A stretch of 56,775 bases of DNA from Spirochaeta cellobiosiphila DSM 17781. GTDB lineage: Bacteria; Spirochaetota; Spirochaetia; DSM-17781. Shown one piece after another: positions 7,892 to 24,917 of the stretch. Numbering within the stretch: position 1 is the stretch's first letter; every line of letters starts with the position of its first letter. Where the stretch lies: contig NZ_KE384556.1 of the NCBI RefSeq assembly GCF_000426705.1, positions 1 through 56,775 on the forward strand, written 5' to 3'. Made by a program: the position numbers and the translations under genes. The notes beneath the pieces were generated by a model. It did no database searches. It was not told the origin of the DNA and saw only the letters and a program-made list of their open reading frames with translations.

Positions 7892-7900
7892 AACAATATT

Positions 7901-7937: not shown

Positions 7938-7952
7938 CTTATTTAATAATTA

Positions 7953-8405: not shown

Positions 8406-8417
8406 CCTTATGTCTCC

Positions 8418-9203
8418 TTATACATCCTGAATTTTACTTATGGCCTTAAGAACTACCGACTTGGGTAAGAGAGGTAAGAAAAGCAGGCCTAGTCTAAGTC
8501 CGAAGGGCATGACCTTTACATTGAGTTTGCCCTTGACCATACCTCGGTATCCCGCCTGGGCCACTTTTATGGTTTGCAAAGGCTTCTTAAAGGCTATGGT
8601 TTTATCCATTCCTGATTTCTGACCAAATTGGCTTTTTGTAGCTCCGGGCATCAAGGCCGTTACACTAACCCCTGTGCCCCGTAATTCCTCTGCGATGCCG
8701 TTACTGAAGGAAGTCACAAAGGCCTTCGTTGCATAATAGACGGCTTGAAAAGGTCCCGGAGTGAGGGCCGCCATAGAGGATACGTTTAAAACCCGTCCAG
8801 ATTTTCTTTGCACAAAATCCGGTAGGAATAATCGGGTTAAAGCAGCTAAGCTCATCACATTGACCTGGATCATGGACCTATCCGCTTCCCAGTCCCTTTT
8901 ATGGAAGGAGCCTAGGCCTCCAAATCCTGCATTATTGATTAAATAGTCAATGGTAATACCCTTTTCTTTAACACTTGTGTATATGTTTTCAGGACCCTCT
9001 GGTAAGTTCAGATCCTGAAGGATAATCTCGACTTTTACCTGGTATTTTGACTCTATCTCTTCTTTGACTTTATTCAAAGCTTCACCATTACGGGCGACGA
9101 GAACTAAATCACCACCATAACTTGCATGAAGAATCGCCAGCTCCCGCCCAATACCGGAAGAAGCTCCTGTTATTAAGGCCACCTTGCCTTTTGTATTTTC
9201 CAC
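8418..9203 (-). CDS. Short-chain dehydrogenase/reductase (SDR)
   Basis: The 261-residue protein is a classical SDR. It has a cofactor motif TGASSGIG at residues 12-19, NNAG in the middle and the YxxxK catalytic pair in YYATKAF, preceded by the conserved serines of NVSSMAAL. The Arg/Asn residues after the second beta strand (LVARNGEAL) suggest NADP preference. It resembles the DltE/YqjQ-like group of unknown substrate, with a basic hydrophobic C-terminus (RLGLLFLPLLPKSVV) that may touch a membrane. The ribosome site is AGGAGG. It is followed by the C_GCAxxG_C_C gene. Confidence 0.88.
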   Translation of the reverse strand: MENTKGKVALITGASSGIGRELAILHASYGGDLVLVARNGEALNKVKEEIESKYQVKVEIILQDLNLPEGPENIYTSVKEKGITIDYLINNAGFGGLGSFHKRDWEADRSMIQVNVMSLAALTRLFLPDFVQRKSGRVLNVSSMAALTPGPFQAVYYATKAFVTSFSNGIAEELRGTGVSVTALMPGATKSQFGQKSGMDKTIAFKKPLQTIKVAQAGYRGMVKGKLNVKVMPFGLRLGLLFLPLLPKSVVLKAISKIQDV

Positions 9204-9254: not shown

Positions 9255-9746
9255 TTACACACGCCTGCCTAAGACAATCAGGCTTCGTTCCTTATGATCT
9301 AATTCGGCGATATTAGGATAATGGCCCCACTCTTCAAAGCCTGATTTTTTAAACAGCCTTAGGCTTGGTTCATTATGAAGGAAGATAAAACCTAAGATAG
9401 TCTTAATATCATATTGGGGCGCCTTTTCCAGGCTATGCTGGAGGATGGCAGAACCTAAGCCTTTTCCCCTTTGATCCTCATCCAGATAGATACTGATTTC
9501 AACAGTATGTTTATAGGCAGGACGTCCATAGAAGGATTGGAAACTGACCCAGCCTACAATATCTTTCTGATCATTTTCCACGACCCATAAGGGGCGTGTC
9601 CGGGGATTATGCTGATAAAACCAGTCTTCCCGACTGGCCACACTAACCGGTTCAAGATCAGCAGTTACCATTCGAGAGGCGATTGTCGTGTTGTAGATAA
9701 GGACTATAGTTGGAAGGTCAGCTATCAGGGCATCTCTATAGGTCAT
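9255..9746 (-). CDS. GNAT N-acetyltransferase, phosphinothricin-acetyltransferase-like
   Basis: The 163-residue protein opens with RDALIADLPTIVLIYN and contains RGKGLGSAIL, the acetyl-CoA pyrophosphate loop (Q/RxxGxG/A), plus SFYGRPAYKHTVEISIYL. This pattern is typical of the Pat/Bar/YncA group that acetylates amino groups of small molecules such as phosphinothricin or methionine sulfoximine. Its start overlaps the stop of the neighbouring GNAT gene by 4 bp, so the two are translationally coupled. Confidence 0.85.
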   Translation of the reverse strand: MTYRDALIADLPTIVLIYNTTIASRMVTADLEPVSVASREDWFYQHNPRTRPLWVVENDQKDIVGWVSFQSFYGRPAYKHTVEISIYLDEDQRGKGLGSAILQHSLEKAPQYDIKTILGFIFLHNEPSLRLFKKSGFEEWGHYPNIAELDHKERSLIVLGRRV

Positions 9747-10252
9747 AGTTTATATTCCATCAAGTGAAAATCACCTTTTCTAAATCGGGCAATCCCCACC
9801 ATATGATATCCTAACTTAGTGTATAGTCTGATGGCGTAGGGGTTGAGGGTAAAGCAATCCAAACGAACCGTCTCTGTTCCCTTAGCCCTTAGTTCTTCAT
9901 GAATATGCATCATGGTTCGGTATCCCACTTTCTGGTTCTGGAATAGAGGATTGACACATAGACGGTGAATCACAGTGAAGTCACTATGAGGATATTGCCA
10001 TTGCCCTTTGTGATATTCCTCGTCGAATTCCTGATTGAGAACATAAGTGGAGGCAATACGTCCATCAATGCTTACTTTATATAATTGGGATTGTTCCCTA
10101 TCATAGCGGAGCTGCTTCTCATCAGGATAGATATCATCCCATTGGTCGATACCTAAACTAAGCATTTTATTAACCGCCCTTTGGTACAGGGACAAGACCT
10201 CATCCATGTCATCGGCGGTTGCCAGATTATAATCGAGTTCACTCATTACCAT
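9743..10252 (-). CDS. GNAT family N-acetyltransferase
   Basis: This 169-residue protein has GNAT hallmarks: an N-terminal TADDMDEVLSLYQRAV helix, VIHRLCVNPLFQNQKVGYRTM containing the acetyl-CoA loop QNQKVG, and C-terminal NPYAIRLYTKLGYHMVG. The substrate is unknown. The frame starts ATG GTA ATG, and either ATG may be used; the ribosome site is poor (AGG). It lies 23 bp after the hemerythrin gene and overlaps the next GNAT gene by 4 bp. Confidence 0.83.
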   Translation of the reverse strand: MVMSELDYNLATADDMDEVLSLYQRAVNKMLSLGIDQWDDIYPDEKQLRYDREQSQLYKVSIDGRIASTYVLNQEFDEEYHKGQWQYPHSDFTVIHRLCVNPLFQNQKVGYRTMMHIHEELRAKGTETVRLDCFTLNPYAIRLYTKLGYHMVGIARFRKGDFHLMEYKL

Positions 10253-10275
10253 AGAACCTATATTACAATGTCTTT

Positions 10276-10686
10276 TTATTGGACTCCATGGCTTTTGAGA
10301 TGTTCTTCATATTTTTTATCACTCACGGCAATATGATTAAGGAGCCACTCTTTTAGAAAATTCATGACCGACACACTTAATAACATATTGCCTTTATCAA
10401 ATTTCTCTTTAAACTCAGTCACTTTTTTAACAAACTCCTGGTGTTCCTTTTTATGCTCTGTACTTAAGGGATAAGCCGTGGAATCAAACAGCTTTTCCTC
10501 TGTGCTGAAATGGACTTCTGTATATTCTAATAAGCCATTAATTGTTTCCCCTATATGCTCTGTAGCCTTCCCGTCCTTCATATCTTCAAAGAGCTTATTT
10601 AAAATGGTAGCTAACTTTTTATGTTGTGAATCAATAACCCCAATTCCTAAATCATAATCTTTGTTCCAAACGACAAATTCTGTCAT
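10276..10686 (-). CDS. Bacteriohemerythrin
   Basis: This 136-residue single-domain protein keeps all seven di-iron ligands of hemerythrin: His22 (DSQH), His59 and Glu63 (HFSTE), His78 and His82 (HKKEH), His118 and Asp123 (HIAVSD). It binds O2 reversibly in the cytoplasm. In anaerobic or micro-aerophilic bacteria it is thought to buffer or sense oxygen or deliver it to enzymes. A good AGAGGGG ribosome site precedes the ATG. It probably has its own promoter or is read from the AlaX gene 47 bp upstream. Confidence 0.93.
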   Translation of the reverse strand: MTEFVVWNKDYDLGIGVIDSQHKKLATILNKLFEDMKDGKATEHIGETINGLLEYTEVHFSTEEKLFDSTAYPLSTEHKKEHQEFVKKVTEFKEKFDKGNMLLSVSVMNFLKEWLLNHIAVSDKKYEEHLKSHGVQ

Positions 10687-10733
10687 AATCCCCTCTTTCT
10701 ATCCAAGATAAAATAAAGTCTATAAAAGAGAGG

Positions 10734-11375
10734 TCATCTGTCAAATCTAATTTCGATCCGTTCTTTGCCTTTCCCGATGTTTTTACGCTTTAACTTAATC
10801 GGTCCCAGTTCTCCCGTCGATCGAAGATGGGTTCCTCCACAGGGGACTTGTCCAAAACCGTCGATCTTCCAATAGCGTCTTTGTTGTTCTTCATCACTAA
10901 AGGCACTAATAATAGGAAGATTTTGATCCACAAGATTTTGATAGGCTTCTAATAACTTAGGATAAAAGGGAGCTAAACTCTCCTCCCAGAGGAAATCAAT
11001 TCGTGCCTTATCCTGACTGATATGAGCCCCTATCTTTTCTATACCTGGCCAGGTGGAATAACATAACTCAAGGATGATTTCTGCGGCGAAATGGAGACGC
11101 ATAAGAAGATATCTCCTCTCCCAATCGATCTTAACAAGGACCTCATCACCAGGCTTAAAGCTTGGGACTTCTGCTAATTCATAGTAGATATCCCATCCCT
11201 CTTTGCGAGCGGACAACACATTCACCCCACCTATCGTTCCCGTGTCACTTTCCTGTCCTCCGGAAAAAGCATAGAAGATAGTAGAGTCTAATGAGACGGT
11301 TCGCCCTTCTCTGGTTTTTATGGTTGTTAATAATTCTGTTTGATAGGGGTTCTCCCAAAAGACCTTCTGAACCAT
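10734..11375 (-). CDS. Alanyl-tRNA editing protein, AlaX family
   Basis: The 213-residue protein resembles the editing domain of alanyl-tRNA synthetase and should hydrolyse mischarged Ser-tRNA(Ala). The C-terminal metal motif CGGTH (in VPCGGTHLRSTGELG) is intact. The N-terminal metal motif, normally HxxxH, reads HFAAE here, with Glu for the second His. From memory, a bacterial AlaX subgroup shares this HFAAE form together with FYAFSGGQESD and LKRKNIGKGKERIEI, so it is probably a subgroup feature, not damage. It starts 4 bp after the LysM amidase gene and is likely co-transcribed with it. Confidence 0.85.
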   Translation of the reverse strand: MVQKVFWENPYQTELLTTIKTREGRTVSLDSTIFYAFSGGQESDTGTIGGVNVLSARKEGWDIYYELAEVPSFKPGDEVLVKIDWERRYLLMRLHFAAEIILELCYSTWPGIEKIGAHISQDKARIDFLWEESLAPFYPKLLEAYQNLVDQNLPIISAFSDEEQQRRYWKIDGFGQVPCGGTHLRSTGELGPIKLKRKNIGKGKERIEIRFDR

Positions 11376-11379
11376 TTGC

Positions 11380-12918
11380 CTATGAAGAAGAACGGGCCGC
11401 GTAAGCTAAAACACCATTGAGAATCATACTAGCCTGTTCCTCTCTCAAGTGCCAATCTCTGATGGCCCATCCATTCCTGTCAAAATATAGATTCCGGGTT
11501 TCAATCAATACAGCTGCGTCAGCAGGATTATTCCTGAGAACCCGTACTTCCTCTTTGTGGGTAAAGGCCCCTTGTCCCAGATACTCTGTCAGTGTCTGGG
11601 CAAAAGATAAGGAAGTCTTTAATTCCTTACTATTATCTCCATAATAGATTATCGCTGTTGCTTCAGGCAAATTAGGAGAATTATCCGCATGCATACTGAT
11701 ATATAAAGTATGCCGGGAATGACTTTGTGAGAGGTATTTCTTAGCAAGGATTTTCCGTTCTTCTAATCCCTTCGTCCCTCCCCGGGGCCTGAAAGACGTA
11801 TTGTTAGGTCCTCCTAACCAGTTGTAGACTTCATTTTTCTCATGGGTAAAGGGTTTATGCGCAGAGCCATCCCGAATGATATGGTTAGGGCTAATGATTG
11901 TCATATCAACCTGAGCACCATGTAAAGCCAATAGCCTGTACAAACGTAATGACGTATCATAGGCATACTCATCTTCCACGATATAAATAGGCTGACCCAT
12001 CCCGTTAGAACCTTCTACGATGGCCCCGGAATCATACCCCCCATGCCCTGGATCTAATATGATATGCCACCCTTCCAACTCTCTTCCCAGGCTTCTCTCC
12101 GCAGCTATAGACTTTTGGAATTTTCTAATCAGGGAGCTAGCCTGTTCATAGTCATCCTGAAGAGATTGGCTGGGGCTTTCCTGGTAAGAGATAGACAGTT
12201 GATGGTCACTATGAGGTTTGGAATAATAATATTCCCCCAGGGGTTTGATAGAATCACGAGGAGAGGAATAAGTGAGTTTTAGTTTTTGTCCTACATAAAG
12301 AGTGTCAGAACTAAGGTCATTCCATAATCGAAGGGTAGCCATACTGACATTATGACGATGGGCAATACTCCAGAGGGAATCACCAGCTTGTACTACATAT
12401 ATGTCCTTTGCCACCTGGGGAATCTTGAGCTTCATTCCTACTCTCAGGAAGGGAGAATCAAGATGATTTGCCCTTTGAATCTTATCCATAGAGATGTCCC
12501 ATTTATAGGCTAATCCCGATAGGGTATCACCAGCACGAACTTCATATTCATCGTCCTGGGAAGATAAACGGATCTCCTTGCCCACTTGAAGGATATCGTC
12601 ATAAAGGGCATTTGGATTCCCCCTTCGTAGCTCTTCTTGGGAGATATCAAAGGCATAGGAGATAGAGCTTAAGGTATCCCCTTCCTGGATAATGTACTTA
12701 GTATCTTTCTGACTATTAGGTATAAGGATTCGTATACCATCCCTCAGTATATCTTCATCAAAATGATTGATGGCCATAATACGGTCTTGGGAGATGGAAT
12801 AGCGATAGGCGATCTCTGAGAGAGTATCTCCTTGCTGGACAACATATTCCTCACTATAGGCGATAGAAATGATAAACAGGAAAAGGGCACAACCAAGCAG
12901 ATACTTATAGTGATTCAT
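11380..12918 (-). CDS. LysM-containing N-acetylmuramoyl-L-alanine amidase
   Basis: This 512-residue exported protein has a signal peptide (about 1-22). Four LysM repeats follow, each opening with a YVVQQGDTLSEIA-like stretch, at roughly residues 25-67, 73-117, 123-166 and 173-216. A linker leads to an Amidase_3 zinc domain. Its catalytic and zinc residues are visible: His in LDPGHGGYDSGA, Glu in VEDEYAYD, His in SMHADNS and Glu in VLIETRN. It should bind peptidoglycan through LysM and cleave between MurNAc and L-Ala, for growth or daughter-cell separation. The ribosome site before the ATG is weak. It lies 27 bp downstream of a GNAT gene. Confidence 0.92.
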   Translation of the reverse strand: MNHYKYLLGCALFLFIISIAYSEEYVVQQGDTLSEIAYRYSISQDRIMAINHFDEDILRDGIRILIPNSQKDTKYIIQEGDTLSSISYAFDISQEELRRGNPNALYDDILQVGKEIRLSSQDDEYEVRAGDTLSGLAYKWDISMDKIQRANHLDSPFLRVGMKLKIPQVAKDIYVVQAGDSLWSIAHRHNVSMATLRLWNDLSSDTLYVGQKLKLTYSSPRDSIKPLGEYYYSKPHSDHQLSISYQESPSQSLQDDYEQASSLIRKFQKSIAAERSLGRELEGWHIILDPGHGGYDSGAIVEGSNGMGQPIYIVEDEYAYDTSLRLYRLLALHGAQVDMTIISPNHIIRDGSAHKPFTHEKNEVYNWLGGPNNTSFRPRGGTKGLEERKILAKKYLSQSHSRHTLYISMHADNSPNLPEATAIIYYGDNSKELKTSLSFAQTLTEYLGQGAFTHKEEVRVLRNNPADAAVLIETRNLYFDRNGWAIRDWHLREEQASMILNGVLAYAARSSS

Positions 12919-12945
12919 ACATTTTATATCGTATGATTTGATGGA

Positions 12946-13395
12946 TTATTTTAGGACTTTTTTGTAGACAATAGAGTAAGCTTCTTCTGTATAATACTGT
13001 CGTCCTATAGAGATATAACCTCTATTCTCATAGTAAGATTGGTTTATAGAATGAAAGTAAGAAGCTTCTAATTGAACGGACTGAATATCAGCCATCGATT
13101 CTATAGAAGAGAGGACTTGAGACCCTATCCCCTGATTTTGATATTCCGGGAGAATAAAGACCCTTTTTAGTTCACAAACCCTGTCTATAATGCTGTAAAT
13201 AAAGCCACCAATGGGGATATCTTCCCACTCAATAACATAGTAATGATACTGGGATATGGCGAGAAGCTGACTGTCATCACTATCATAGCCCGGTGGTCCG
13301 GCCCCCACCATTTGTTCATCAAAAGCAAAGGCTTCTATCTGTATGGCAGTTAATAAGGAAGCATCAGCGGGAGTGGCTTTTCTATATTTGATCAT
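12946..13395 (-). CDS. GNAT family N-acetyltransferase
   Basis: The protein has a GNAT fold (ATPADASLLTAIQIEAF; RVFILPEYQNQGIGSQVL with acetyl-CoA loop QNQGIG; YYENRGYISIG). A longer frame begins at a GTG at 13407 with no ribosome site; the ATG at 13395 has GTGAG 7 nt before it and gives the usual family start, so I prefer 149 residues. The start lies inside the end of the PocR-AraC gene (stop at 13382), so the two are translationally coupled. The substrate is unknown. Confidence 0.82.
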   Translation of the reverse strand: MIKYRKATPADASLLTAIQIEAFAFDEQMVGAGPPGYDSDDSQLLAISQYHYYVIEWEDIPIGGFIYSIIDRVCELKRVFILPEYQNQGIGSQVLSSIESMADIQSVQLEASYFHSINQSYYENRGYISIGRQYYTEEAYSIVYKKVLK

Positions 13396-14254
13396 TTCGA
13401 TACTCACGGGGAGATTGTTTGAAGTGCTTTTTAAATAATCTGGAAAAATAAAGAGGATCAGAGAAACCTGTTTTCTCTGCCACCTCTGATATGGTCATAT
13501 CCGTAAAGTCCCTGAGCAATTTGGAAGCTTCCTTGATTCGTAATTGTACAATAAGTTGCTTAAAGCTGTGTCCTGTCTTGTTCTTAAGGGCCAGATTAAT
13601 AGTAGAGGGTGATTTATGGAATTTATCCACCAGATCAGACATCTCCACATTGTATAGGTAATTATTTTTTATGTATGCCAGTAATTCATCACCTAATTGG
13701 TTTTGCTTTAAGGCCAGCATATTATTATCTAAAATATAAGAGGTTGTCATTCTGATTAACTGTAAGGCACTCTCTAGCTTTTCCCCGTTATAATGGGGAA
13801 GCTTATTATACTCTTTCTCTAATTGAGTCTTTAAGAAGGACATATTATGAGAGGTGATTTTAAGAGGGAGTTCTTCTTCTGTTCGGAATTGTCCCACCAA
13901 AAAGAATCCAACACATTCTTCATCAAAGATGATAGGAAAGACAGCTTCATGCAAACCGGCATGACATTGGTAATGTATGGTCTCTCCAGAAGCTTTTGCC
14001 TGACTGCAGTAGAATTGATCGTTCTTCACACACTCTTGATACAAACCCAGATTGCTTTGAATGAGCTTGCAATACTGACAGGAAGCTTGGGTGTCCAAGG
14101 GGGCTTTTTCTTCATAATTAACATCAAAGAAGGACATTCTAAAACCAAGAACCTTGGAAATGTTATTGAGAATCTCTAAACCTTCTTTGGATAAAACCAC
14201 ATCTAAGGGATAATTCATGGATATAGTATCAATTGTTTTAATTGATTTGTCCAT
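13382..14254 (-). CDS. AraC-family regulator with PocR ligand-binding domain
   Basis: The 290-residue protein has an N-terminal PocR domain (about 18-165). Its cysteine cluster (CQYCKL, ECVKND, YCSQ) and the YQCHAGLHEAVFPI motif are those of the family; such domains bind small hydrocarbon derivatives or a metal/redox ligand. The C-terminal AraC DNA-binding domain (about 185-288) has two helix-turn-helix units, ending VAEKTGFSDPLYFSRLFKKHFKQSPREYR. The gene is divergent from the sugar nucleotidyltransferase gene across 71 bp and may control it. There is no ribosome site before the ATG at 14254; an in-frame ATG at 14218 is a possible leaderless start. Confidence 0.87.
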   Translation of the reverse strand: MDKSIKTIDTISMNYPLDVVLSKEGLEILNNISKVLGFRMSFFDVNYEEKAPLDTQASCQYCKLIQSNLGLYQECVKNDQFYCSQAKASGETIHYQCHAGLHEAVFPIIFDEECVGFFLVGQFRTEEELPLKITSHNMSFLKTQLEKEYNKLPHYNGEKLESALQLIRMTTSYILDNNMLALKQNQLGDELLAYIKNNYLYNVEMSDLVDKFHKSPSTINLALKNKTGHSFKQLIVQLRIKEASKLLRDFTDMTISEVAEKTGFSDPLYFSRLFKKHFKQSPREYRNDQI

Positions 14255-14325
14255 ATATTAACAGCTTAGCCCATGTTCTTTATCCCTCATTAGACATAGA
14301 TTACCCATAGAATGAGGAGTTTATC

Positions 14326-15225
14326 ATGAATAAAACTGTTGTAGTGATGGCTGCAGGCCTGGGAACAAGATATGGAGGGTTAAAGCAATTAGACATTGTA
14401 GGCCCTACGAATGAAACCATTATCGATTATTCTATGTATGACGCTTATAAAGCTGGTTTTACAAAAGTAGTATTTATTATTCGAGAGGACTTTAAGCAGG
14501 AGTTTATCGAAAAGATTGGATCTAAATATGAAAATCTCATGCAAGTTAATTATGCCAATCAATCCCTTGCTGATACTCCGATCATCATCAAAGACATCGC
14601 CAATATTCGAACAAAACCATGGGGAACGGGACATGCCTTATTAGCCGCACGTCATGTACTGGAAGACCCCTTCTTGATCATCAATGCAGATGACTATTAT
14701 GGAACCAACGCCTTCAAAGCCGCTTCTGATTATATGGAAAATATGAAGGCAAGCCAAATGGAAGCTAGCATGATAGGTTATACCCTCGCTAATACTCTGA
14801 GTGAATATGGAAGCGTGGCTCGGGGCATCTGCTCTATAAATTCTGAGGGAATATTGGAAGACATAGAGGAAACTCTGGGGATCCACCGTAATGAAACTGG
14901 TTCTGTAGTATCACAGGAAGGAAAGATCCTTGATGAACAAGGAATGGTGTCCATGAATATGTGGTTACTAACCCCTCCCTGCCTTAAATTAGGCTCCTCT
15001 TATTTTGAAGACTTTCTAGGTGAGGAAGAGAATCTCAAGAAAAAGGAATTCTACCTCCCTACATTGGTTAAGCGACTGATCGATGAGCAGGGCCTCGTCT
15101 TACCTGTATTGCATAGTCCTGATCAATGGTTTGGAGTGACGTACCGTGAAGACAAACCTATCGTCAAATCACATATCAAGAAACTGATAGACCAGAATAT
15201 CTACCCCTATAAGCTATGGGATTAA
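14326..15225 (+). CDS. Sugar-phosphate nucleotidyltransferase
   Basis: This 299-residue protein has the NTP-transferase signature AAGLGTRYGGLKQ (residues 9-21; the G-x-G-T-R loop binds the nucleotide phosphates) and a metal-binding INADDYYG. It should join a sugar 1-phosphate to UTP (or another NTP) to make a nucleotide sugar and pyrophosphate. The next gene, 16 bp downstream, is an N-acetylhexosamine 1-kinase homologue, so the likely substrate is GlcNAc-1-P or GalNAc-1-P; that is an inference from context. The ribosome site GAGGAG is good. The promoter lies in the 71-bp gap shared with the divergent PocR-AraC gene. Confidence 0.85.
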   Translation: MNKTVVVMAAGLGTRYGGLKQLDIVGPTNETIIDYSMYDAYKAGFTKVVFIIREDFKQEFIEKIGSKYENLMQVNYANQSLADTPIIIKDIANIRTKPWGTGHALLAARHVLEDPFLIINADDYYGTNAFKAASDYMENMKASQMEASMIGYTLANTLSEYGSVARGICSINSEGILEDIEETLGIHRNETGSVVSQEGKILDEQGMVSMNMWLLTPPCLKLGSSYFEDFLGEEENLKKKEFYLPTLVKRLIDEQGLVLPVLHSPDQWFGVTYREDKPIVKSHIKKLIDQNIYPYKLWD

Positions 15226-15241
15226 GAACAGGAGGCTGACA

Positions 15242-16366
15242 ATGACTGATCAAGAAATGAAAGAAATAATAAATCAATTTGTTATCTATGGAGATATTAT
15301 ATCCTTCGCTCCCTATGGTAGCGGTCATATAAATGATACCTATGTGGTGAATACCAACCAGGCAGGAACAGACATACGCTATATCATTCAGCGCATAAAC
15401 ACTAAGGTATTTACCGATCCAGAAGGTCTTATGTCGAATATCAAGCGTATTACTGAGACCCTTCAGAAGGGCTATCAGGACAATGATGTCATAGATAGTT
15501 CGAGAAGAACATTAACGGTCATTCCTTCCAGAGAAGGAAAACCTTATCTGGTTGATCAGACTGGTAATTATTGGAGAATGTACTTATTCATTGAAAAGGC
15601 TTTAGGTTATGATTTTATTGAGAACACAACCCAGGCCTTTGAAGCGGCGAAAAGCTTTGGAGAATACCAGAAGCTTCTAAACGATATGAAAGGAGAACGT
15701 CTGGTTGAGACTATTAAAGACTTTCACAATACTCCTAAACGTTTTGAATACTTTAAGTCCGTATTAGCAAAGGCCAGCTCTCTTAAAAAAGACCAGGCCA
15801 AAGAAGAGATAGACTTCTACCTATCCAGAGAAGAAGAGACCTCTCACCTTATGAATCTCTATAAATCAGGTAAGATTCCTGAAAGGATTACCCATAACGA
15901 TTGTAAACTCAATAATGTGCTCTTAGATGTTCATAACTATAAAGCTATTTGCGTTATTGATTTAGATACAACCATGCCCGGATTAAGTCTCTATGACTTT
16001 GGAGATTTGGTAAGGACATCCGTGGTTCGTGCTCCGGAAGATGAAAAGGATCTGACACAAATAGTGATAGACATGGAAATGTTCAGATCCCTCATTGATG
16101 GCTATCTGATATCCACCTTGTCCTTCCTTAATGAAACAGAGAGAGAGAATCTTGTTTTCGGTGGCAAGATAATGACTTATGAAGTAGGTCTTAGATTCCT
16201 CACAGACTTTTTGGAGGGGGATAAGTATTTTAAAACGTCCTATGAGGAACATAATCTAGTTCGCACAAGAACTCAGATGACCTTAGTCAAAGCTATTGAA
16301 AAATGTCAAAAAGAAATGGAAGCTTATGTGGAGCACCGATACAACAAACTAATAGCAAAGAACTAG
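15242..16366 (+). CDS. N-acetylhexosamine 1-kinase-like phosphotransferase
   Basis: The 374-residue protein is an aminoglycoside-phosphotransferase-fold kinase that closely follows Bifidobacterium NahK from end to end: YGSGHINDTYVV, RYIIQRINTKVF, HNTPKRFEYFK, the catalytic loop THNDCKLNNVL (Asp220), the metal motif VIDLDTTMPG, and C-terminal EEHNLVRTRTQMTLVK. NahK phosphorylates the anomeric position of GlcNAc or GalNAc using ATP. With the upstream nucleotidyltransferase it could turn free HexNAc into UDP-HexNAc. The ribosome site is AGGAGG. The stop codon overlaps, inside a CTAG palindrome, that of the convergent AraC gene. Confidence 0.88.
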   Translation: MTDQEMKEIINQFVIYGDIISFAPYGSGHINDTYVVNTNQAGTDIRYIIQRINTKVFTDPEGLMSNIKRITETLQKGYQDNDVIDSSRRTLTVIPSREGKPYLVDQTGNYWRMYLFIEKALGYDFIENTTQAFEAAKSFGEYQKLLNDMKGERLVETIKDFHNTPKRFEYFKSVLAKASSLKKDQAKEEIDFYLSREEETSHLMNLYKSGKIPERITHNDCKLNNVLLDVHNYKAICVIDLDTTMPGLSLYDFGDLVRTSVVRAPEDEKDLTQIVIDMEMFRSLIDGYLISTLSFLNETERENLVFGGKIMTYEVGLRFLTDFLEGDKYFKTSYEEHNLVRTRTQMTLVKAIEKCQKEMEAYVEHRYNKLIAKN

Positions 16367-18531
16367 TTTTTCTTGCGTAAAGTATTAGGTGTTCTCGATT
16401 CGTATTTCTTGAAGACACGAATAAAGGAGATGTCACTGGAAAAACCAACTGCAGTGGCAATCTCTTTTATATTCATATCTGTTTTTAAGATAAATTCCTT
16501 TGCCAAATTAATTCGCAATTGGTTAATGTATTGAACAATTCCCACTCCGCAAACCTGTTTGAAAGTAGAAGATAAATAGGAGTTACTAACATTCAATTCT
16601 TCAGCAATGCTATATAAACCTAATAAGGAGTTAGTATAATCCCTATGAATTATGGTCTTGGCCTTCTCTGCTAAGGAGTTTCTTTCCCCATTGAGAGTCT
16701 TCGATAAGCGTATTTCCAAAGTATCCCAGAACTGTAAGAGATTTAAACGCATCTCTCTTTGGTTTGAAAAATCAAAAAAGGGATCTCCTAATTGCTGTAA
16801 ATCAATGTTCTGATGCTGGCTGATATCCTTTATTAAATCGACGAGAGGTGTTAGATGATATTTTAAATCTTCCATGGTCTCACTCACGGATATACATTGA
16901 GAGAAGAAAAGATCAAAGAAAAGCCTAATATCGGGAAAGTTATTCTGGACAATACTGTTATATAGGGAATCAAAGTAGTTATTGAGGTTCTGATCTGATC
17001 GTTCGGTCATTCCTTTCTGATAGGCCTTGACCGGTGAAGAATTCACTTGGGAGCTCTCTTTCAGGGCCACTATGGCATTGTGATAACTATCCTTTATTGA
17101 ACTCAAATTATCAACACAGGAGCCTATTCCGACTAGTGGTGTTTTGCCCCATAGGTCCTGCTCTGTTAGTTCTGTCATGAGAGGAATCAAGGTTGATACC
17201 GCAATAGAAGATTCCACATTTAGAAGTAAGACATATTGATGATTGAAGACCGATACAACAGATTCCATCGTATTTTCTTCGAGCCAGGTGTGAAGTTTTT
17301 TTATGACTCCATTATTACTGGTATTAAATGTTTTAATAAGGACCACAACAAAGAAGTCATTTTCAAAACTGATATCATACAACTGGGCAAAGTTAAAAAT
17401 ATCTTTCTCGGACATATTATCTGTATTGATTAAGGTGTTAATGAATAAACCTGTAATCATATTCTGTTGTATCTGTAATTTTTGTAATTGTGTTCCATGT
17501 TCAAAGACAAGATTATCAATACTTTTATTGATAATATCATATTCATTACCACGGACCCTATTAGAATGATGTAATTTATGAAGAAGTGATTCTATAGGAG
17601 CAGCATTACGTTTACCAATCCTTACGGACATATACCATCCAAGAATTCCAATAGCTAATATACCAGTGACACATATTAGCAGGGGATAGATAAAGGCTTG
17701 CAGATTATGGGGAAGATTATAGGAATTTACGTATTCAATGCCCGGGAATAAACGAGATTCCGTTCGCAGGACATACTTAAACTTGTTATTGTCCTTCGGT
17801 TTATCAGCTTTAGAAGGTTCTGGGTCACTTAGGACAGAATCCTCCTCACCTTGGTTATCAGGGAGCGGCTGTCCATCAACGATCATCCCAAAAGAGACTT
17901 TTTCTGCTCTCCTGTCGACGACTCTTTCACTATCCTGAAACAACACCCCAGGATTTAACATGACGACCATAATCCCTGCAACATTACCCTGAGAGTTCAT
18001 TCTTCTTATATAAACGATGCGGGTCTGTCCCCATAATTCGATGAGTCGAAAACCATCAATTGTTTTGTCAATATTAACCAACCAGTCCTGATATCCTGTT
18101 GAATCAAGTTGATTGTTCAGCATGTAAAAGGATTGTGAAGGAAAGACTCCCAGACTGCCTATGACGTATTGATTAGAGGGATAATAGATAAACAGATCAG
18201 CAATGGTTTTATTAGTTAAGGTAAAGGTAGAAAGGACTTGTGATAAATCATAATCATCGGAGGACACTATATGGTCAGGGCCGATGTTCTTCTTTATTTT
18301 CCGATTATCCTCATTTAATTCAATAGTGAGGGCTATTTTCTGAATCTCCAGTAATTGGTTATCCATAGAATGATTCATAAACTGGGACATACTGGCCATA
18401 GAGGAATACAGAGTATTTCTTAACAAATGTAGATTATACACCATCAATAAGGAACTTAGCCCTAGTACCACAAGGACAATCATGGTACTGGACCTAATCC
18501 ATGAGTGCATTAAACTATTCTGGTAATGCAA
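16363..18531 (-). CDS. Membrane-anchored AraC-family regulator (YesN/MalR-like)
   Basis: This 722-residue protein has two membrane helices (about 15-35 and 281-301) that bracket an extracytoplasmic sensor domain. A cytoplasmic linker follows, and a C-terminal AraC DNA-binding domain (about 620-720; IAEELNVSNSYLSSTFKQVCG and IATAVGFSSDISFIRVFKKY). This build occurs in regulators that sit beside sugar ABC transporters and sense extracellular glycans. It is the last gene of the leftward transporter operon, 23 bp after the DUF4091 gene, and likely controls that operon. The start is TTG at 18531, supported by an AGAGGGAGAG ribosome site 8 nt before it; the next ATG is at 18510. Confidence 0.88.
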   Translation of the reverse strand: MHYQNSLMHSWIRSSTMIVLVVLGLSSLLMVYNLHLLRNTLYSSMASMSQFMNHSMDNQLLEIQKIALTIELNEDNRKIKKNIGPDHIVSSDDYDLSQVLSTFTLTNKTIADLFIYYPSNQYVIGSLGVFPSQSFYMLNNQLDSTGYQDWLVNIDKTIDGFRLIELWGQTRIVYIRRMNSQGNVAGIMVVMLNPGVLFQDSERVVDRRAEKVSFGMIVDGQPLPDNQGEEDSVLSDPEPSKADKPKDNNKFKYVLRTESRLFPGIEYVNSYNLPHNLQAFIYPLLICVTGILAIGILGWYMSVRIGKRNAAPIESLLHKLHHSNRVRGNEYDIINKSIDNLVFEHGTQLQKLQIQQNMITGLFINTLINTDNMSEKDIFNFAQLYDISFENDFFVVVLIKTFNTSNNGVIKKLHTWLEENTMESVVSVFNHQYVLLLNVESSIAVSTLIPLMTELTEQDLWGKTPLVGIGSCVDNLSSIKDSYHNAIVALKESSQVNSSPVKAYQKGMTERSDQNLNNYFDSLYNSIVQNNFPDIRLFFDLFFSQCISVSETMEDLKYHLTPLVDLIKDISQHQNIDLQQLGDPFFDFSNQREMRLNLLQFWDTLEIRLSKTLNGERNSLAEKAKTIIHRDYTNSLLGLYSIAEELNVSNSYLSSTFKQVCGVGIVQYINQLRINLAKEFILKTDMNIKEIATAVGFSSDISFIRVFKKYESRTPNTLRKKN

Positions 18532-18554
18532 GAAATACTCTCCCTCTAAGTCAA

Positions 18555-20228
18555 CTAACTCCCAAGAGCTTGAAAGATTCTCCCATGAAGCTCTGAGAAG
18601 TACTCATCGTATCTTGGATAGCTAGTAAAAGTAAACAGATTTTTTCCTTCTCCCAGAACCAATTCGATTGTTTTATCCCTTCCCAATACAGATTCTGTAT
18701 AGGTCAATAATCTTAAATCATCTAAAGCGAGGACCTGAATTTCATTCCTTATAGAGCCGAGGGGACCCTCTTTACCAGGATAAACCAGGTAGGCATCACC
18801 TGAAGGGAAAGCCATATCGCAATCAGTGGTTAAGAAGGGATTTATTTTACTTTTAGAGAATTGGGAACTATAGAAATTATATCCCCAATGGAGAAAGCCT
18901 TCTATTTTATATAAATACATGAGTACGCCCATAATCCGATTCCTTCTATTAGGCATGGAAAGGAAACGATTTGGAACTAGTTTTCCCTGTGCTACACAAT
19001 AATATGTCCATAAATGTTCAACATTGTGATCAATAAAGGTCTGTATCGCACTATTTGCGGGAACGGGATGGGAGACAATATCTTTTTGATAGAAATCATA
19101 ACTACTTAGGGCATCTATAATCGTATATCCCGATAATAGATCCTCTACTTGAGACTTTGATTTAAGATAACTTTCCAGATGCTGATCTTCTGGTTCATCA
19201 GAGATGTGGAAAAACAGACGATCCTTGGTATAAGAGTTTTCTTCTAATGATTTTAGTAAGGCTGGAATCAATTGATTCAGAAAATCTTTATACTCAGGAG
19301 AATCAGCTTTTGTGTGCCACCCGAAACGTAATTCACCATTGACATATATGTTAGGAGTGAATTCAGCTCCCCATTGTGTAAAGAAATGACTGATCTCCAG
19401 ATATTGGACGCCCAGCTTTGAACAGATCTGACACCAGCGATCAAGCAAGGAAAAATCAAATTGATAAGTCGTTCCCTCATAGGATATTTGCAGTAACTGG
19501 ACGTTAGTTCGACTTCCTCCTACTTCTGTATCTAAGGGCGGGGTAAAGACAGGAGTAAGGATGGTGTTAATACCACAGCGATTAACAGCATAATCAATGA
19601 ATTGTTCTATTCGTTCCCAATGGGCTTCACTATAGGCATCGACACCATAGTAATCAGCCAGACAATCTGTATGAAACCATTCAGTATGTATTAAGCTTTG
19701 TTCTGGTAAGGTCTGAGCTAACACATCAATTTGAAATTCAAGAGTTGTCTCTGTAGTGTTTTTAAGGATTACCTCTTCACCATTCCCTAGGACTATCTTT
19801 TTATCAGGAACAATGTTGATTCCTATATTATGTGTTCCTGCATCCAAACGGGAACTATCTATTTGAAGCCACAAACTTCTGTACTGATTAAAGACAGGTT
19901 TCAACTTTCCTTCAAAAGCATCTAACAAATCTGGATAGAGACCAGGAGTCTTTGACAGGTAATCAGTATCATCATTAGGAGTACTGGGATACTGGGAAGG
20001 AACAAGTTCAACCTTACGGATCTCCAGTAAGGATTGGTCTCCTGTCACATTAAGAGAGAAGGCCTGCATTCGGCTTGTAGGGTCAGGATCTGTTAAGGAA
20101 TACACCAATTGCAGATTCACAACTTGTCCTTTCAGGACAGTGAAAGCCTTCTCCTTTAGGGGAGAAGGTTTTCTGTCAGGAAAAACTTTGGTCATAGAGT
20201 CAGCAAGATAAAAATCAAAATAAGCCAT
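18555..20228 (-). CDS. DUF4091 / GH123-like putative glycoside hydrolase
   Basis: This 557-residue protein lacks a signal peptide. An N-terminal beta-sandwich (about 25-170) precedes a TIM-barrel-like domain of the DUF4091 type, related to glycoside hydrolase family 123. The barrel shows FHISDEPEDQH with the neighbouring acids Asp344-Glu345. In GH123 N-acetyl-beta-galactosaminidases an Asp-Glu pair at this kind of site carries substrate-assisted catalysis. The segment MYLYKIEGFLHWGYNFYSS is a DUF4091 hallmark. It sits between the permease genes and the regulator gene of a sugar transporter operon, facing an N-acetylhexosamine kinase gene. A cytoplasmic glycosidase for imported HexNAc-containing oligosaccharides is my inference; the substrate is not proven. 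Confidence 0.8.
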   Translation of the reverse strand: MAYFDFYLADSMTKVFPDRKPSPLKEKAFTVLKGQVVNLQLVYSLTDPDPTSRMQAFSLNVTGDQSLLEIRKVELVPSQYPSTPNDDTDYLSKTPGLYPDLLDAFEGKLKPVFNQYRSLWLQIDSSRLDAGTHNIGINIVPDKKIVLGNGEEVILKNTTETTLEFQIDVLAQTLPEQSLIHTEWFHTDCLADYYGVDAYSEAHWERIEQFIDYAVNRCGINTILTPVFTPPLDTEVGGSRTNVQLLQISYEGTTYQFDFSLLDRWCQICSKLGVQYLEISHFFTQWGAEFTPNIYVNGELRFGWHTKADSPEYKDFLNQLIPALLKSLEENSYTKDRLFFHISDEPEDQHLESYLKSKSQVEDLLSGYTIIDALSSYDFYQKDIVSHPVPANSAIQTFIDHNVEHLWTYYCVAQGKLVPNRFLSMPNRRNRIMGVLMYLYKIEGFLHWGYNFYSSQFSKSKINPFLTTDCDMAFPSGDAYLVYPGKEGPLGSIRNEIQVLALDDLRLLTYTESVLGRDKTIELVLGEGKNLFTFTSYPRYDEYFSELHGRIFQALGS

Positions 20229-20231
20229 AAA

Positions 20232-21041
20232 CTATCCTTTAATTCCGCTCAGGGCAATTCCCTGTATGAACATTCTTTGGAGTGATAAGTACAAGAGAAA
20301 GGGGGGGAGAAAAGCCAAAGTTGAACCAGCCATTACCAGTCCATAGTTAGTGGAATAGGTTCCTTTCAAAGCGGATATGGCTAGAGTTAATGTTTTCATA
20401 GAAGGTTTGCTTGCGATAACCAAAGGCCAGAGGAAGTCATTCCAGCTGGTAATAAAGGTGAATATGGTGAGAGAAATCAATACGGTTTTTACTAAAGGGA
20501 GAACGATAGTAAAAAAGATTCTCGGATCACTACAGCCATCAATCTTGGCAGCTTCTAACAGATCATCAGGGATACCAACCATAAACTGACGCACAAGGAA
20601 TACCCCAAAGGCATTAATAATAGGTAAAAACAAAGCGGGATAGGTATTCATCAATCCTAAGTTCTTAATGATAACAAACACAGGTATCAATGTAACTTGG
20701 CCGGGAATCATCAAAGTAGCGATATACAGATAGAAGAGCTTATCCCTCAAGGGAAATTTCTTCTTGGCAAAAGCATAAGCAGCCATAGCACTGATGAAGT
20801 TATTAAAGATACAAGCTGATACGGTAACGATCAGACTATTACGGAAGTTCACAAGGATATTCAGGTTCTTAAAGACCCTAAAATAATTAACTAAGCTCAA
20901 CTCATTGATAGCAAATTGAAAATCAAGAACTTGTTTTTGAGTTAATGATACAAGAGCCATATAGACAAAAGGTATAAAAGCCGCCACGGCAAATATCACC
21001 AAACAAATTCCAATAGTAATATTAATAATTCTGTTTCTCAT
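20232..21041 (-). CDS. Carbohydrate ABC transporter permease, MalG type
   Basis: This 269-residue integral membrane protein has six predicted helices and the EAA loop that docks the ATPase (EAAKIDGCSDPRIFFTIVLP). Length and C-terminus (GIALSGIKG) match the MalG-like inner-membrane subunit of CUT1 sugar importers. It lies 9 bp after the MalF-type gene and 3 bp before the DUF4091 gene. No ATP-binding subunit gene is in this operon; CUT1 systems often share one ATPase (MsiK-like) encoded elsewhere. Confidence 0.92.
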   Translation of the reverse strand: MRNRIINITIGICLVIFAVAAFIPFVYMALVSLTQKQVLDFQFAINELSLVNYFRVFKNLNILVNFRNSLIVTVSACIFNNFISAMAAYAFAKKKFPLRDKLFYLYIATLMIPGQVTLIPVFVIIKNLGLMNTYPALFLPIINAFGVFLVRQFMVGIPDDLLEAAKIDGCSDPRIFFTIVLPLVKTVLISLTIFTFITSWNDFLWPLVIASKPSMKTLTLAISALKGTYSTNYGLVMAGSTLAFLPPFLLYLSLQRMFIQGIALSGIKG

Positions 21042-21050
21042 ATTCTCCCC

Positions 21051-21968
21051 CTACCCGTCTTTTCTCATAATCAGTCGTTGCAATTGAGAAAGGAGAATGA
21101 CAAACACAAACATTAACAGAGCAATAGCGCTTGCATAACCCATACTATATTCTTTGAAAGCCGTATTATATATGGTTAACACTAAGGTAACTGTAGATAA
21201 ACCAGGACCGCCTCCGGTCATGGTATAGACCATATCAAATATTTGGAAAGACCAAATGGTTCCTAAAGTAACAACTAGATAAGTAACAGAGGACAAACCA
21301 GGAATAGTAATGTGAATGAATTGCTGCCATTTGCTGGCCCCATCCACAGAAGCGGCTTCATATAAACTAGTGGGGATCTCTAATATTCCTGCATAGAATA
21401 TGACTAAAAAGTATCCGACATTTTTCCAGATAGTAGCGATACAAATACTTAACAAAGAAGTTGATTGTCTTCCCAGCCAATTGATAGGCTCTAGTCCTAT
21501 TAATTCTATAGCCTGATTCACAACCCCATGAGAACTAAGAATAATAGACCACAAGGTTCCTACTAATACAGCAGAAGCGATAACAGGAATGAACAATGCG
21601 CCTTTAATGAAATTGGTAAACTTATCGTGAAACCGTCTTACTAACAATGCGGCTAATACCAATGCAAAGAGTGTTTGTAGTGGAACGGTTATAAAGGTAA
21701 ATATAACTGTATTTTTTATTGAGGCCACAATATAGGGATCATTAATAAGTCGTTTATAGTTGGACAAACCACTCCAAGAAGGTGGTTGAATGATATTATA
21801 ATCATGAAAACTATAAAAAATGTTCATCACAATAGGGAGTATTGCGAAGATCGTAATTAATAATAAACTTGGCAAAATATAGACAAATGCTCCAAGAGCT
21901 TCTTTCCTATTACGTGTCATATGAAGATCCTTTAGGGAAGGCAATGGAATAAATCCATTGCCTTTCAT
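21051..21968 (-). CDS. Sugar ABC transporter permease, MalF type
   Basis: The 305-residue protein has about six membrane helices and an EAA loop (EAASVDGASKWQQFIHITIP). It is the MalF-like partner of the following permease in a CUT1 sugar importer. The sequence IWKNVGYFLVIFYAGILEIP just before the EAA loop is typical of this family. The start at 21968 follows the solute-binding protein gene by only 2 bp. Confidence 0.92.
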   Translation of the reverse strand: MKGNGFIPLPSLKDLHMTRNRKEALGAFVYILPSLLLITIFAILPIVMNIFYSFHDYNIIQPPSWSGLSNYKRLINDPYIVASIKNTVIFTFITVPLQTLFALVLAALLVRRFHDKFTNFIKGALFIPVIASAVLVGTLWSIILSSHGVVNQAIELIGLEPINWLGRQSTSLLSICIATIWKNVGYFLVIFYAGILEIPTSLYEAASVDGASKWQQFIHITIPGLSSVTYLVVTLGTIWSFQIFDMVYTMTGGGPGLSTVTLVLTIYNTAFKEYSMGYASAIALLMFVFVILLSQLQRLIMRKDG

Positions 21969-21970
21969 TA

Positions 21971-23221
21971 TTATTCTGAGTCAATGATACTTTTAGAATA
22001 ATCTACTGTGTTTTTAATAGCTTCTTCAGGTGTAAGAGCATCCAACATCATAAGCTGTAAATTCTTGTAAAGGTTATCCATAATTTTAAAGGATCCCTCT
22101 GCTACAGGTAATGTCTTGAAATACTCTGTGTCATTAGAATACATGTCCTCAAAAATAGGATTATCATTGTACGCTTCATCAACAGTGATAGGTGGGAATT
22201 GAGCAATAACAGTATGGTACTTAGCCATAACTTCACTACTGGTTATGAACTTCATCAATTCAGCAGCTAATTCCTTGTTTTTGGACTGGCTGTTCATAAT
22301 AAGGGAATCAGAGGCTACCCATATAGCTTTTGTTTTGTCAGTAAAGCTTGGGATAAAGTCCCATTCAACACCAGCTTTGGTTAATCGACTTCCTGCTTTG
22401 GCATCCATGTATGCAATACCTACACGACCTTTACTAAACTCTTGATATAATGTGGATTCATCCATAGAAAAACTTTCTTCAGGAATCACTCCGTACTTGT
22501 AACGCATATCATACAAGAATCTGGCCGCTCTTACTGCGGCGTCATTGTCCATCAAAGCTACACGGTCTCCAGCCTTGTTATAGATGTCACCACCAGCTTG
22601 CCATAAGTAGGGATAGTACAGCGTATTAAGGGCTCCAATGGCAGGGTCAGCCCAAGCTTGACCAAAGGGGATAACATCATCTAAGCCGGCGTTCTTTATT
22701 TTAACAGCTGCAGCTCTTAAATCATCCCAAGTCTGGGGTAACTCAGTGATACCGGCTTTTCTAAAAATCTCTTTGTTAAAGTAAGGTAGACGGGCATTAC
22801 CAACGATAAAAGGAAGAGCATATTGACCACCCTTCATATTACCTTGATCCCAATAGAGATATTTTGCTTTTTCAGCTTCAGTGAAATAGCCGGAAAGATC
22901 TTCCAATGTTCCCATTTCTATAAAGTCGTTAAACATTTCCAAATACATATATCCAATGTCTGGACCTTGTCCTGAAGCTATACCTGTTAGGTATTTTTCT
23001 TCATAACCACCCCAGGGAGTGATCTCAACATCTACTTTTACATTGTGAGCTTCAGCCCAGGGAGCAATTGTCTCTTGCCAAAACATCTGATCTGTAGTAT
23101 CACCTGTTGCGAATGGTGGTAACCACACTAGTAAAGAAGATTCACTTTCACTTTGTCCTTCTGCAAACAGGCCAAAGGATAGAGTGGATAGAAATAAAAT
23201 CATTAACAGTTTCTTAATCAT
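21971..23221 (-). CDS. Extracellular sugar-binding protein of an ABC transporter
   Basis: The 416-residue protein is a family 1 solute-binding protein, first gene of the leftward importer operon. The signal peptide (residues 1-20) ends GLFAEGQSE, a style common in spirochaetes, without a lipobox cysteine, so it should be free in the periplasm. Conserved features include ASGQGPDIGYMYLEMFNDF, PFIVGNARLPYFNKEIFRKAG and AAELMKFITS. The ligand is probably an oligosaccharide; the neighbouring GH123-like gene suggests one with N-acetylhexosamine. GGAGAG precedes the ATG. Confidence 0.9.
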   Translation of the reverse strand: MIKKLLMILFLSTLSFGLFAEGQSESESSLLVWLPPFATGDTTDQMFWQETIAPWAEAHNVKVDVEITPWGGYEEKYLTGIASGQGPDIGYMYLEMFNDFIEMGTLEDLSGYFTEAEKAKYLYWDQGNMKGGQYALPFIVGNARLPYFNKEIFRKAGITELPQTWDDLRAAAVKIKNAGLDDVIPFGQAWADPAIGALNTLYYPYLWQAGGDIYNKAGDRVALMDNDAAVRAARFLYDMRYKYGVIPEESFSMDESTLYQEFSKGRVGIAYMDAKAGSRLTKAGVEWDFIPSFTDKTKAIWVASDSLIMNSQSKNKELAAELMKFITSSEVMAKYHTVIAQFPPITVDEAYNDNPIFEDMYSNDTEYFKTLPVAEGSFKIMDNLYKNLQLMMLDALTPEEAIKNTVDYSKSIIDSE

Positions 23222-23424: not shown

Positions 23425-23976
23425 ATGTATTCTACAAATATGTATACCCTTTTTTTGCAAGGAAAAAGTGGATATGTCCCCAAATTCAGTGATATATTAC
23501 CTATTATTATGTTAATTAATTATAATGTTGATAAAGTAACACTAACTATTTCACCAAAATATCTAGCTTATACAGATAACAAAGAGGATATTCTGTATAA
23601 TTTTAAAGCAAGTCTTTTTAATCCATTTCCACAAATAAAAGCCTACAAAGGTAGTACTCAGAAGGAACTTATTGCCTATATGAAGGGCAATCTTATCAGA
23701 AAACATTACAAGATATATTCTCCTGATGGTAGCTTAAAGGCGTCTATTCATTATCCCTTTTACAGGTCTTTTCAAAGAGTTGTCTTTACAATAGGTGATA
23801 AGATTTATAAGACGAAGAAAAGCTTCTTTGAGAGTAGAATTGTTCTCCGTGATGATAATGATCAAGAATTCTTGTCTTATAACATCTTTGAGGATTCTGA
23901 CTCTAACCAGTCCATTTACTTCCATGAGAGCCTTCCAGTAGAAATTGCGTTATTAGTCGCTATTAGTATAGATTAG
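23425..23976 (+). CDS. LURP-one/Tubby-C-like protein, paralogue 1
   Basis: The 183-residue protein is a diverged paralogue of the protein at 24429-24917. Shared blocks, in order, are KAYKGSTQKELIAYMKGNL versus IGYKGENSKEIIATMEGDL, then HYPFYRSF versus TFPFFEFG, then LPVEIALLVAISID versus LPKELVIMSAIALD. The strand-rich pattern resembles the LURP-one-related/Tubby C-terminal fold, which binds membranes or phospholipids in other organisms; its bacterial role is not established. No membrane helix or signal is present. The start is uncertain: the ATG at 23425 has no ribosome site, and in-frame ATGs lie at 23440 and 23509. The alignment with the paralogue covers the part after about residue 35. 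Confidence 0.65.
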   Translation: MYSTNMYTLFLQGKSGYVPKFSDILPIIMLINYNVDKVTLTISPKYLAYTDNKEDILYNFKASLFNPFPQIKAYKGSTQKELIAYMKGNLIRKHYKIYSPDGSLKASIHYPFYRSFQRVVFTIGDKIYKTKKSFFESRIVLRDDNDQEFLSYNIFEDSDSNQSIYFHESLPVEIALLVAISID

Positions 23977-24022: not shown

Positions 24023-24364
24023 TTATGCTTCATAAGATCTCTGAAGCAATTGAATGCCCTGGAAGATTTGGTTCACTCGCTCTTCTGAAAGTTGTCCCAT
24101 ATATTCGCCTAAATCATCCTTTTTAATATCTGTCACTTGAGATACATCGACAAGACTTTTGTGAGGAAGACCGCCTTCATTCTCCTCTAATAGAACATAT
24201 CCGGGCCAGGCGGCTTTTCTCATATTACTGGTAATGCCACAGATGACAAGAGATTCTATTCGAGTCTGGTTAATAATGGTATCTTGAATGACCACACAAG
24301 GATGTGGTACTGATCCTTCCCGGCTATACCAGTAGAGATCGCCCCTCTCTATGATTTTATTCAT
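24023..24364 (-). CDS. Solo PemK/MazF-like toxin-family protein
   Basis: From the ATG at 24364 this is a 113-residue protein that begins MNKIIERGDLYWYSREG and continues HPCVVIQDTIINQ, the usual PemK/MazF opening (RGDIYW then P-x-V-V-x-Q/S-x). MazF proteins are ribosome-independent mRNA endonucleases. A start further upstream (24412) is open, but the 24364 start has AGAAGGA 8 nt before it and fits the family. No antitoxin gene is attached on either side; the neighbours are two LURP-one-like genes on the other strand. It may be an orphan toxin, a domesticated RNase, or be paired with an unrecognised partner. Confidence 0.82.
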   Translation of the reverse strand: MNKIIERGDLYWYSREGSVPHPCVVIQDTIINQTRIESLVICGITSNMRKAAWPGYVLLEENEGGLPHKSLVDVSQVTDIKKDDLGEYMGQLSEERVNQIFQGIQLLQRSYEA

Positions 24365-24413
24365 AATTCTAATCCTTCTGTCCTCACAGTCATTAGTAAA
24401 TCTATTTACCATG

Positions 24414-24428
24414 TGTTATAATAAAAAT
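24414..24428 (+). promoter_or_regulatory. Extended -10 promoter of a predicted leaderless gene
   Basis: TGT followed by TATAAT (24417-24422) forms an extended -10 element. The expected transcript start, 7 nt after the last T, is 24429, exactly the A of the ATG of the LURP-one-like gene. No ribosome site lies before this ATG and the -35 region is poor, as usual for extended -10 promoters. Confidence 0.65.
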
Positions 24429-24917
24429 ATGCAACGATATACAATCACACAGCGATTTTTTAGTTGGGGTGTTACTTATGCTGTAACACAAAATAATGAA
24501 GATGAAGTTATTATGCTAGCTAAACAAAAAATTCTAAGCCTTTCTCCCAAAATTATCGGGTACAAGGGAGAGAATAGTAAAGAAATCATAGCCACTATGG
24601 AAGGAGATCTATTTCGTTTCTCTTTTACAGTCCATGATGAGACTGGTAAAAACTTGGGAGGGATTACTTTCCCTTTTTTTGAATTTGGAAAGAGCTTTAC
24701 CCTTAATACATCCTTAGGAAGCTTTAGATCAAAAAGAAAATTTATTGATCCCCAAATAACTTGCTATGATTCTGAAGAAAAGGAAATCCTATCCATAACC
24801 AAAGTTCTGAACCTCACAGATACATTCAATGTGGAAGCTATTGATGACCTTCCCAAAGAATTGGTTATAATGTCAGCTATCGCATTAGACCAAAAATATT
24901 ATCAGAATAACAAATAG
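24429..24917 (+). CDS. LURP-one/Tubby-C-like protein, paralogue 2
   Basis: From the ATG at 24429 this is a 162-residue protein starting MQRYTITQRFFSWGVTYAVT, the classic opening of LURP-one-related (LOR) proteins, which form a Tubby-like beta barrel. Further LOR-like spacing is seen in KILSLSPKIIGYKG and FPFFEFGKSFTL. It is a paralogue of the protein at 23425-23976. Open frame exists upstream to 24351, but that part reads as hydrophobic sequence overlapping the MazF-like gene, and the promoter placement argues for the 24429 start. It is cytoplasmic, without helices. LOR proteins are linked to membrane lipids in eukaryotes; in bacteria the role is unknown. Confidence 0.72.
   Translation: MQRYTITQRFFSWGVTYAVTQNNEDEVIMLAKQKILSLSPKIIGYKGENSKEIIATMEGDLFRFSFTVHDETGKNLGGITFPFFEFGKSFTLNTSLGSFRSKRKFIDPQITCYDSEEKEILSITKVLNLTDTFNVEAIDDLPKELVIMSAIALDQKYYQNNK

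Follow-up and report, generated by a model that had tools for sequence, protein, structure and literature searches.

What becomes of the sugar that enters a spirochete through an importer whose genes stand tail to tail with those of a sugar kinase and a nucleotidyltransferase (NTase)? The locus that raises this question belongs to Spirochaeta cellobiosiphila DSM 17781, and we analyzed it within a window of 56,775 nucleotides, the whole stretch formed by bases 1-56775 of contig NZ_KE384556.1 in a 3.95-Mb assembly that is 96% complete (GCF_000426705.1). Domains were called with Pfam and NCBIfam profiles using curated cut-offs, structural relatives were identified by E-value against solved structures, and the relatives used for comparison share only the class level with this organism. 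The answer that we favor, and hold to be fairly probable, is that the block imports sugar chains ending in N-acetylgalactosamine (GalNAc), cuts GalNAc off inside the cell and activates it to UDP-GalNAc.

On the forward strand, the NTase gene (14326-15225) is followed by the kinase gene (15242-16366), and both converge with the importer-side genes on the reverse strand: the stop of the kinase gene overlaps by 4 bases with that of a membrane-anchored AraC-family regulator (16363-18531, -, TTG start). An earlier reading of the locus (hereafter the original prediction) had described a convergent operon, as this overlap bears out, and the genes that it listed are all open and complete at the positions it gave; it omitted the membrane-anchored regulator as well as a PocR-domain AraC-family regulator (13382-14254, -) at the other end of the block.

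The nature of the sugar is best read from the GH123/DUF4091 protein (18555-20228, -), which scores 331.5 bits with the GH123_cat profile against a curated cut-off of 23.1. Its best solved relatives are two enzymes of Group 4, NgaP2 (8k2l, E=3e-139, 42% identical across an alignment of 533 residues) and NgaLy (8k2n, E=1e-132), and matches to other GH123 structures are far weaker: 8k2j (OR/MR-beta-NGA, 2e-27), 8k2h (beta-HEX, 1.5e-7), 5l7v (2.5e-6) and 5fqe (0.004). The Asp-Glu pair at residues 344-345, which the original prediction had pointed out, falls on the catalytic DE motif of NgaP2 in the alignment and is the GH123 catalytic pair; the motif is invariant in relatives. Pocket residues W196, D244, W298 and F489 of NgaP2 correspond to W184, D233, W286 and F474 of the hydrolase (after a numbering shift of 3 that was established by matching), and D297 of NgaP2 as printed in the paper is Q in the chain, as is the corresponding Q285 of the hydrolase. 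Judged by its sequence, the protein would be a Group-4 monosaccharide-releasing beta-N-acetylgalactosaminidase, and Group-4 GH123 enzymes are strict in this activity (PMC11087588). For this reason we favor GalNAc over the generic N-acetylhexosamine (HexNAc) substrate proposed before; the HexNAc route as such is retained. Since no signal peptide or transmembrane segment was seen in its sequence, the hydrolase is predicted to be cytosolic and to work on what has been imported.

The kinase aligns over residues 8-363 with three solved N-acetylhexosamine 1-kinases (NahK; 4wh1, 4ocj and 4ocu, all at E about 1e-85 to 1e-82, with 4.5e-85 for 4wh1). Residues D208, N213 and D228 of 4wh1, which we take to be the catalytic and metal residues of NahK, are D220, N225 and D240 in the kinase and are invariant among eight relatives; a full-length match with these residues kept confirms that the kinase is of NahK type. 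Characterised NahKs accept GalNAc as well as N-acetylglucosamine (GlcNAc) and use glucose and galactose poorly (PMC6264712), and the kinase would be expected to phosphorylate GalNAc at C1. NahK was present in 21/148 and 98/395 genomes of the class in two samples. In one relative (genome G087, locus L042) the NahK of an NTase-NahK pair apparently carries a stop and a deletion that disrupt it, and this genome has nagA and nagB.

The third enzyme is a sugar-1-phosphate nucleotidyltransferase of 3PNN type (PF00483) matching 3pnn, a structural-genomics entry to which no function has been assigned, over residues 2-297 (E=1.2e-70), with only weak GalU-type matches (~1e-5). Because the genome encodes separate RmlA, GlgC-like, ManC-like and GalU-like proteins, the NTase is probably not needed for UDP-glucose. 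From its gene context, we propose that it is a GalY-like UDP-GalNAc/HexNAc pyrophosphorylase, and this context keeps the previously suggested step from HexNAc-1-phosphate to UDP-HexNAc as the best guess.

Upstream of these activities, the presence of a CUT1 importer was confirmed by a solute-binding protein with an N-terminal hydrophobic signal (21971-23221, -, SBP_bac_1 124.5 bits) and two permeases, permease 1 (21051-21968, -, BPD_transp_1 54 bits) and permease 2 (20232-21041, -, BPD_transp_1 68 bits, UgpE being the closest NCBIfam model). No CUT1 ATPase subunit was found among the open reading frames of the 11-27 kb interval, an ATPase elsewhere in the genome not having been searched for; CUT1 importers commonly share one ATPase. 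A single PocR protein was found in this genome, the PocR-AraC protein of the block (Pfam PocR 100 bits, HTH_18 78 bits); its gene diverges from the NTase gene across a gap of 71 bp, a position from which it probably controls NTase-NahK. The membrane-anchored regulator, with hydrophobic segments at residues 11 and 276, a GGDEF-like region (GGDEF_2) and an HTH_18 domain, comes directly after the hydrolase gene on the strand of the importer genes and, by this position, probably controls the importer operon. A search of 14 intergenic stretches for an operator motif common to PocR and NTase/NahK gave nothing convincing.

Do these genes belong together in other genomes? Across 81 NahK loci, the NTase lies beside NahK in 10 (8 families) and a divergent PocR-AraC gene in 14 (7 families; the window, L024-L027, L038-L040, L140, L159, L168, L173, L186 and L199, by NahK or NTase-NahK). 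In the 148-genome set, on which chance was assessed, 0.025 PocR-NahK neighbours were expected and 8 were seen, in six families. The PocR-AraC regulator is part of a conserved NTase-NahK unit. Its divergent position beside NahK recurs in seven families, which suggests an aminosugar or an aminosugar phosphate as a possible ligand of PocR domains. GalE directly follows NTase-NahK in two loci (L026 and L027), and a third (L074) has NTase-GalE without NahK. On a tree of the NTase, the NahK-neighbour label needs six changes, and because well-supported branches force at least three of them, the pairing is probably recurrent and not one inherited arrangement.

The link of the hydrolase and importer to NTase-NahK is thinner but present. 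In L149, only a few bases separate NahK from a GH123 gene on the same strand, apparently within one operon, and this GH123 protein is 43% identical to that of the window and keeps the DE motif; an impression gained from 20 relatives, that GH123 never occurs near NahK, was overturned by this locus in the wider sample. In L140, PocR is followed by NTase-NahK facing permeases that are 58% (permease 2) and 54% (permease 1) identical to those of the window and a solute-binding protein that is 40% identical, with GH123 absent from the locus. These two arrangements add support to a connection between the two facing operons. L140 also carries, after NTase-NahK, a Gfo/Idh/MocA-type oxidoreductase gene (7285-8457, +) whose best model, UDP-GlcNAc 3-dehydrogenase, is far below cut-off, a hint that the UDP-sugar may be modified further. 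A DUF5107-TPR protein of about 680-760 amino acids adjoins or is near NahK in 13/81 loci, usually with a CUT1 importer (L029:7376-9421 (+), L032, L034, L143, L150, L153, L155, L156, L159, L163, L186, L188 and L190), and is a candidate for an uncharacterised enzyme releasing HexNAc from imported oligosaccharides.

The remainder of the genome supplies functions into which such a block could feed. On another contig, nagA (428.6 bits) adjoins nagB (420 bits), and genes for a ROK regulator and a ROK kinase come after them; galE (451.8 bits, over cut-off) is likewise on another contig, with galK close to it and no galT between. The genome gave no PF09508 match, and phosphorolysis of the GH112 type was rejected for it. 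The proposed pathway would then run as follows. A small oligosaccharide carrying beta-GalNAc at its non-reducing end would enter by the CUT1 importer, energized by a shared ATPase presumably encoded elsewhere; the cytosolic Group-4 GH123 enzyme would cut off GalNAc, using D344/E345 for substrate-assisted catalysis; NahK and ATP would put a phosphate on C1; and the 3PNN/GalY-type NTase would join GalNAc-1-phosphate and UTP into UDP-GalNAc, a role suggested by the recurrent gene pairing. GalE of the genome would equilibrate UDP-GalNAc with UDP-GlcNAc, and the product may feed envelope glycans or, by a reversed pyrophosphorylase step, yield GlcNAc-1-phosphate for the nagA/nagB route. The core of this scheme, from GalNAc through GalNAc-1-phosphate to UDP-GalNAc, is a well-supported inference. 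The original prediction of an anabolic route without deacetylation is not supported, given nagA-nagB, galE and galK in the genome and the catabolic nature of the bifidobacterial NahK pathway; its statement that no deacetylase or deaminase is present holds for the window but fails for the genome. A two-way role of the UDP-GalNAc route, both anabolic and catabolic, appears likely.

Several observations weigh against this reading. The ligand of the importer is not readable from sequence, the closest solved solute-binding proteins binding various sugars, and GH123 adjoins NahK in just one other locus of 80. In L094 and L095, by contrast, the neighbours of GH123-like genes are sulfatases, a KduI-type isomerase and SDRs; in L094 (genome G128, 9473-18755), GH123 is accompanied by a KduI-like isomerase, an SDR, a sulfatase and two importers, a cluster that looks like one for the use of a sulfated, uronate-containing glycan of the chondroitin type. 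Finally, NTase homologs occur in 68/148 genomes and NahK in only 21, so the NTase has a wider role, possibly on galactose-1-phosphate.

One alternative is a catabolic, Isselbacher-like use of the same enzymes: GalNAc-1-phosphate would become UDP-GalNAc and, through GalE, UDP-GlcNAc, whose pyrophosphorolysis, by the NTase run backwards with pyrophosphate or by another pyrophosphorylase, would give GlcNAc-1-phosphate for a mutase, NagA, NagB and glycolysis. The nagA-nagB-ROK cluster and galE in the genome, the NTase-NahK-GalE operons of relatives and the bifidobacterial NahK-GalE-GalT cluster, which turns cleavage products into glycolysis precursors (PMC8106489), all speak for such a flow, but nagAB is unlinked to the block, the mutase and the reverse flux are hypothetical here, and UDP-GalNAc is often made by cells for surface glycans; we regard this catabolic reading as possible, while on balance doubting it. 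It is unlikely, in our view, that the two operons are unrelated neighbours, with PocR and NTase-NahK serving general HexNAc salvage (of GlcNAc derived from chitin or the cell wall, for example) and the operon of GH123 and the importer serving another pathway. PocR-NTase-NahK is indeed conserved without GH123 in L024, L026, L027, L038 and others, and GH123 is usually elsewhere; against this stand the neighbouring, co-oriented NahK and GH123 genes of L149, the recurrence of the same importer in convergent position in L140, a GH123 product that is exactly a NahK substrate, and the nagAB-ROK cluster already present for GlcNAc.

The identity of the NTase leaves room for two further explanations. 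GalY (Amuc_0031, PF00483) is predicted to replace GalT, occurring in galK+ galT- genomes and clustering with galE (Ravcheev and Thiele 2017, PMC5583593), and the NTase could be of this type, acting mainly on galactose-1-phosphate while NahK gives GalNAc-1-phosphate to other enzymes. Such a role would suit the NTase-GalE pair without NahK in L074, the many NTase homologs that do not adjoin NahK and the galK near galE without galT between in the genome itself, yet the NTase pairs recurrently with NahK and galK is not near it, and we find the idea distinctly unlikely. Peptidoglycan recycling by a pair of the AmgK-MurU kind, in which an APH-type kinase and an NTP transferase make UDP-MurNAc, was rejected and seems scarcely credible. 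The same two superfamilies stand side by side in AmgK-MurU, but the kinase of the window matches NahK along its length, and the MurU equivalog NF045761 is not among the NCBIfam matches of the NTase, whereas RmlA, the GlgC-like protein and GalU of this genome match it weakly.

The import and activation of GalNAc that we favor may also bear on how the cell makes UDP-GlcNAc. No GlmU was recognized in the genome (96% complete), the best TIGR01173 score being 33.3 bits against a cut-off of 366.85, and a motif scan of 0.87 Mb (22% of the genome) for a UDPGP/UAP-type loop came back empty. For the missing GlmU, a UDPGP-type enzyme is a more likely source of UDP-GlcNAc than the NTase; since GlmU was not found, the NTase may have an essential biosynthetic role, and it would be more than a salvage enzyme if no other pyrophosphorylase exists. 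We consider very doubtful the bolder idea that, in a cell without recognisable GlmU, NahK and the 3PNN-type NTase, fed by GH123 and governed by a PocR regulator sensing an aminosugar, are the main UDP-HexNAc supply (UDP-GalNAc, and UDP-GlcNAc via GalE). If true, the 3PNN/GalY family would be a broad bacterial UDP-HexNAc pyrophosphorylase and the PocR domain would gain an aminosugar ligand.

Beyond the block, the window encodes at 23425-23976 (+) and 24351-24917 (+) two proteins of 183 and 188 amino acids that appear alike by eye and have no Pfam or NCBIfam match.

Among known systems, the block is a variant of the NahK aminosugar pathway of the LNB/GNB type, its parts coming from known families in a combination that seems undescribed: a non-exhaustive literature search found no description of GH123, NahK, a 3PNN/GalY-type NTase and a PocR regulator together. 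The bifidobacterial LNB/GNB pathway comprises an ABC importer, a GH112 phosphorylase, NahK, GalT class II and GalE. Both have an importer, intracellular release of HexNAc, NahK, a nucleotide-sugar step and GalE (here on another contig, in the operon in L026 and L027), but in the spirochete a GH123 hydrolase replaces the phosphorylase, a 3PNN-type NTP transferase stands beside NahK in place of GalT, and PocR-AraC control is added. NahK chemistry thus appears outside bifidobacteria with another releasing enzyme, another nucleotide-sugar step and a recurrent dedicated regulator. The Isselbacher route for galactose likewise combines a sugar kinase, a UTP-dependent UDP-sugar pyrophosphorylase and a 4-epimerase and needs no GalT, differing in the sugar and in its pyrophosphorylase, which is of an unrelated family, UDPGP. 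With GalY the NTase shares the PF00483 NTP_transferase domain, and a galE neighbour only in the relatives L026, L027 and L074; GalY was proposed for galactose, whereas the NTase pairs with NahK. The pairing offers a testable function for a widespread transferase family known only as the 3pnn entry and, probably, as the predicted GalY. The hydrolase resembles the Group 4 beta-N-acetylgalactosaminidases NgaP2, NgaLy, NgaBf and NgaBl (Sumida et al. 2024, PMC11087588) over its whole length, in its DE motif and in its W/D/W/F pocket; that study dealt with isolated enzymes, whereas the one described here is predicted to be cytosolic and is tied to NahK, which would give a physiological setting to Group-4 GH123 enzymes, of whose natural roles little is known.

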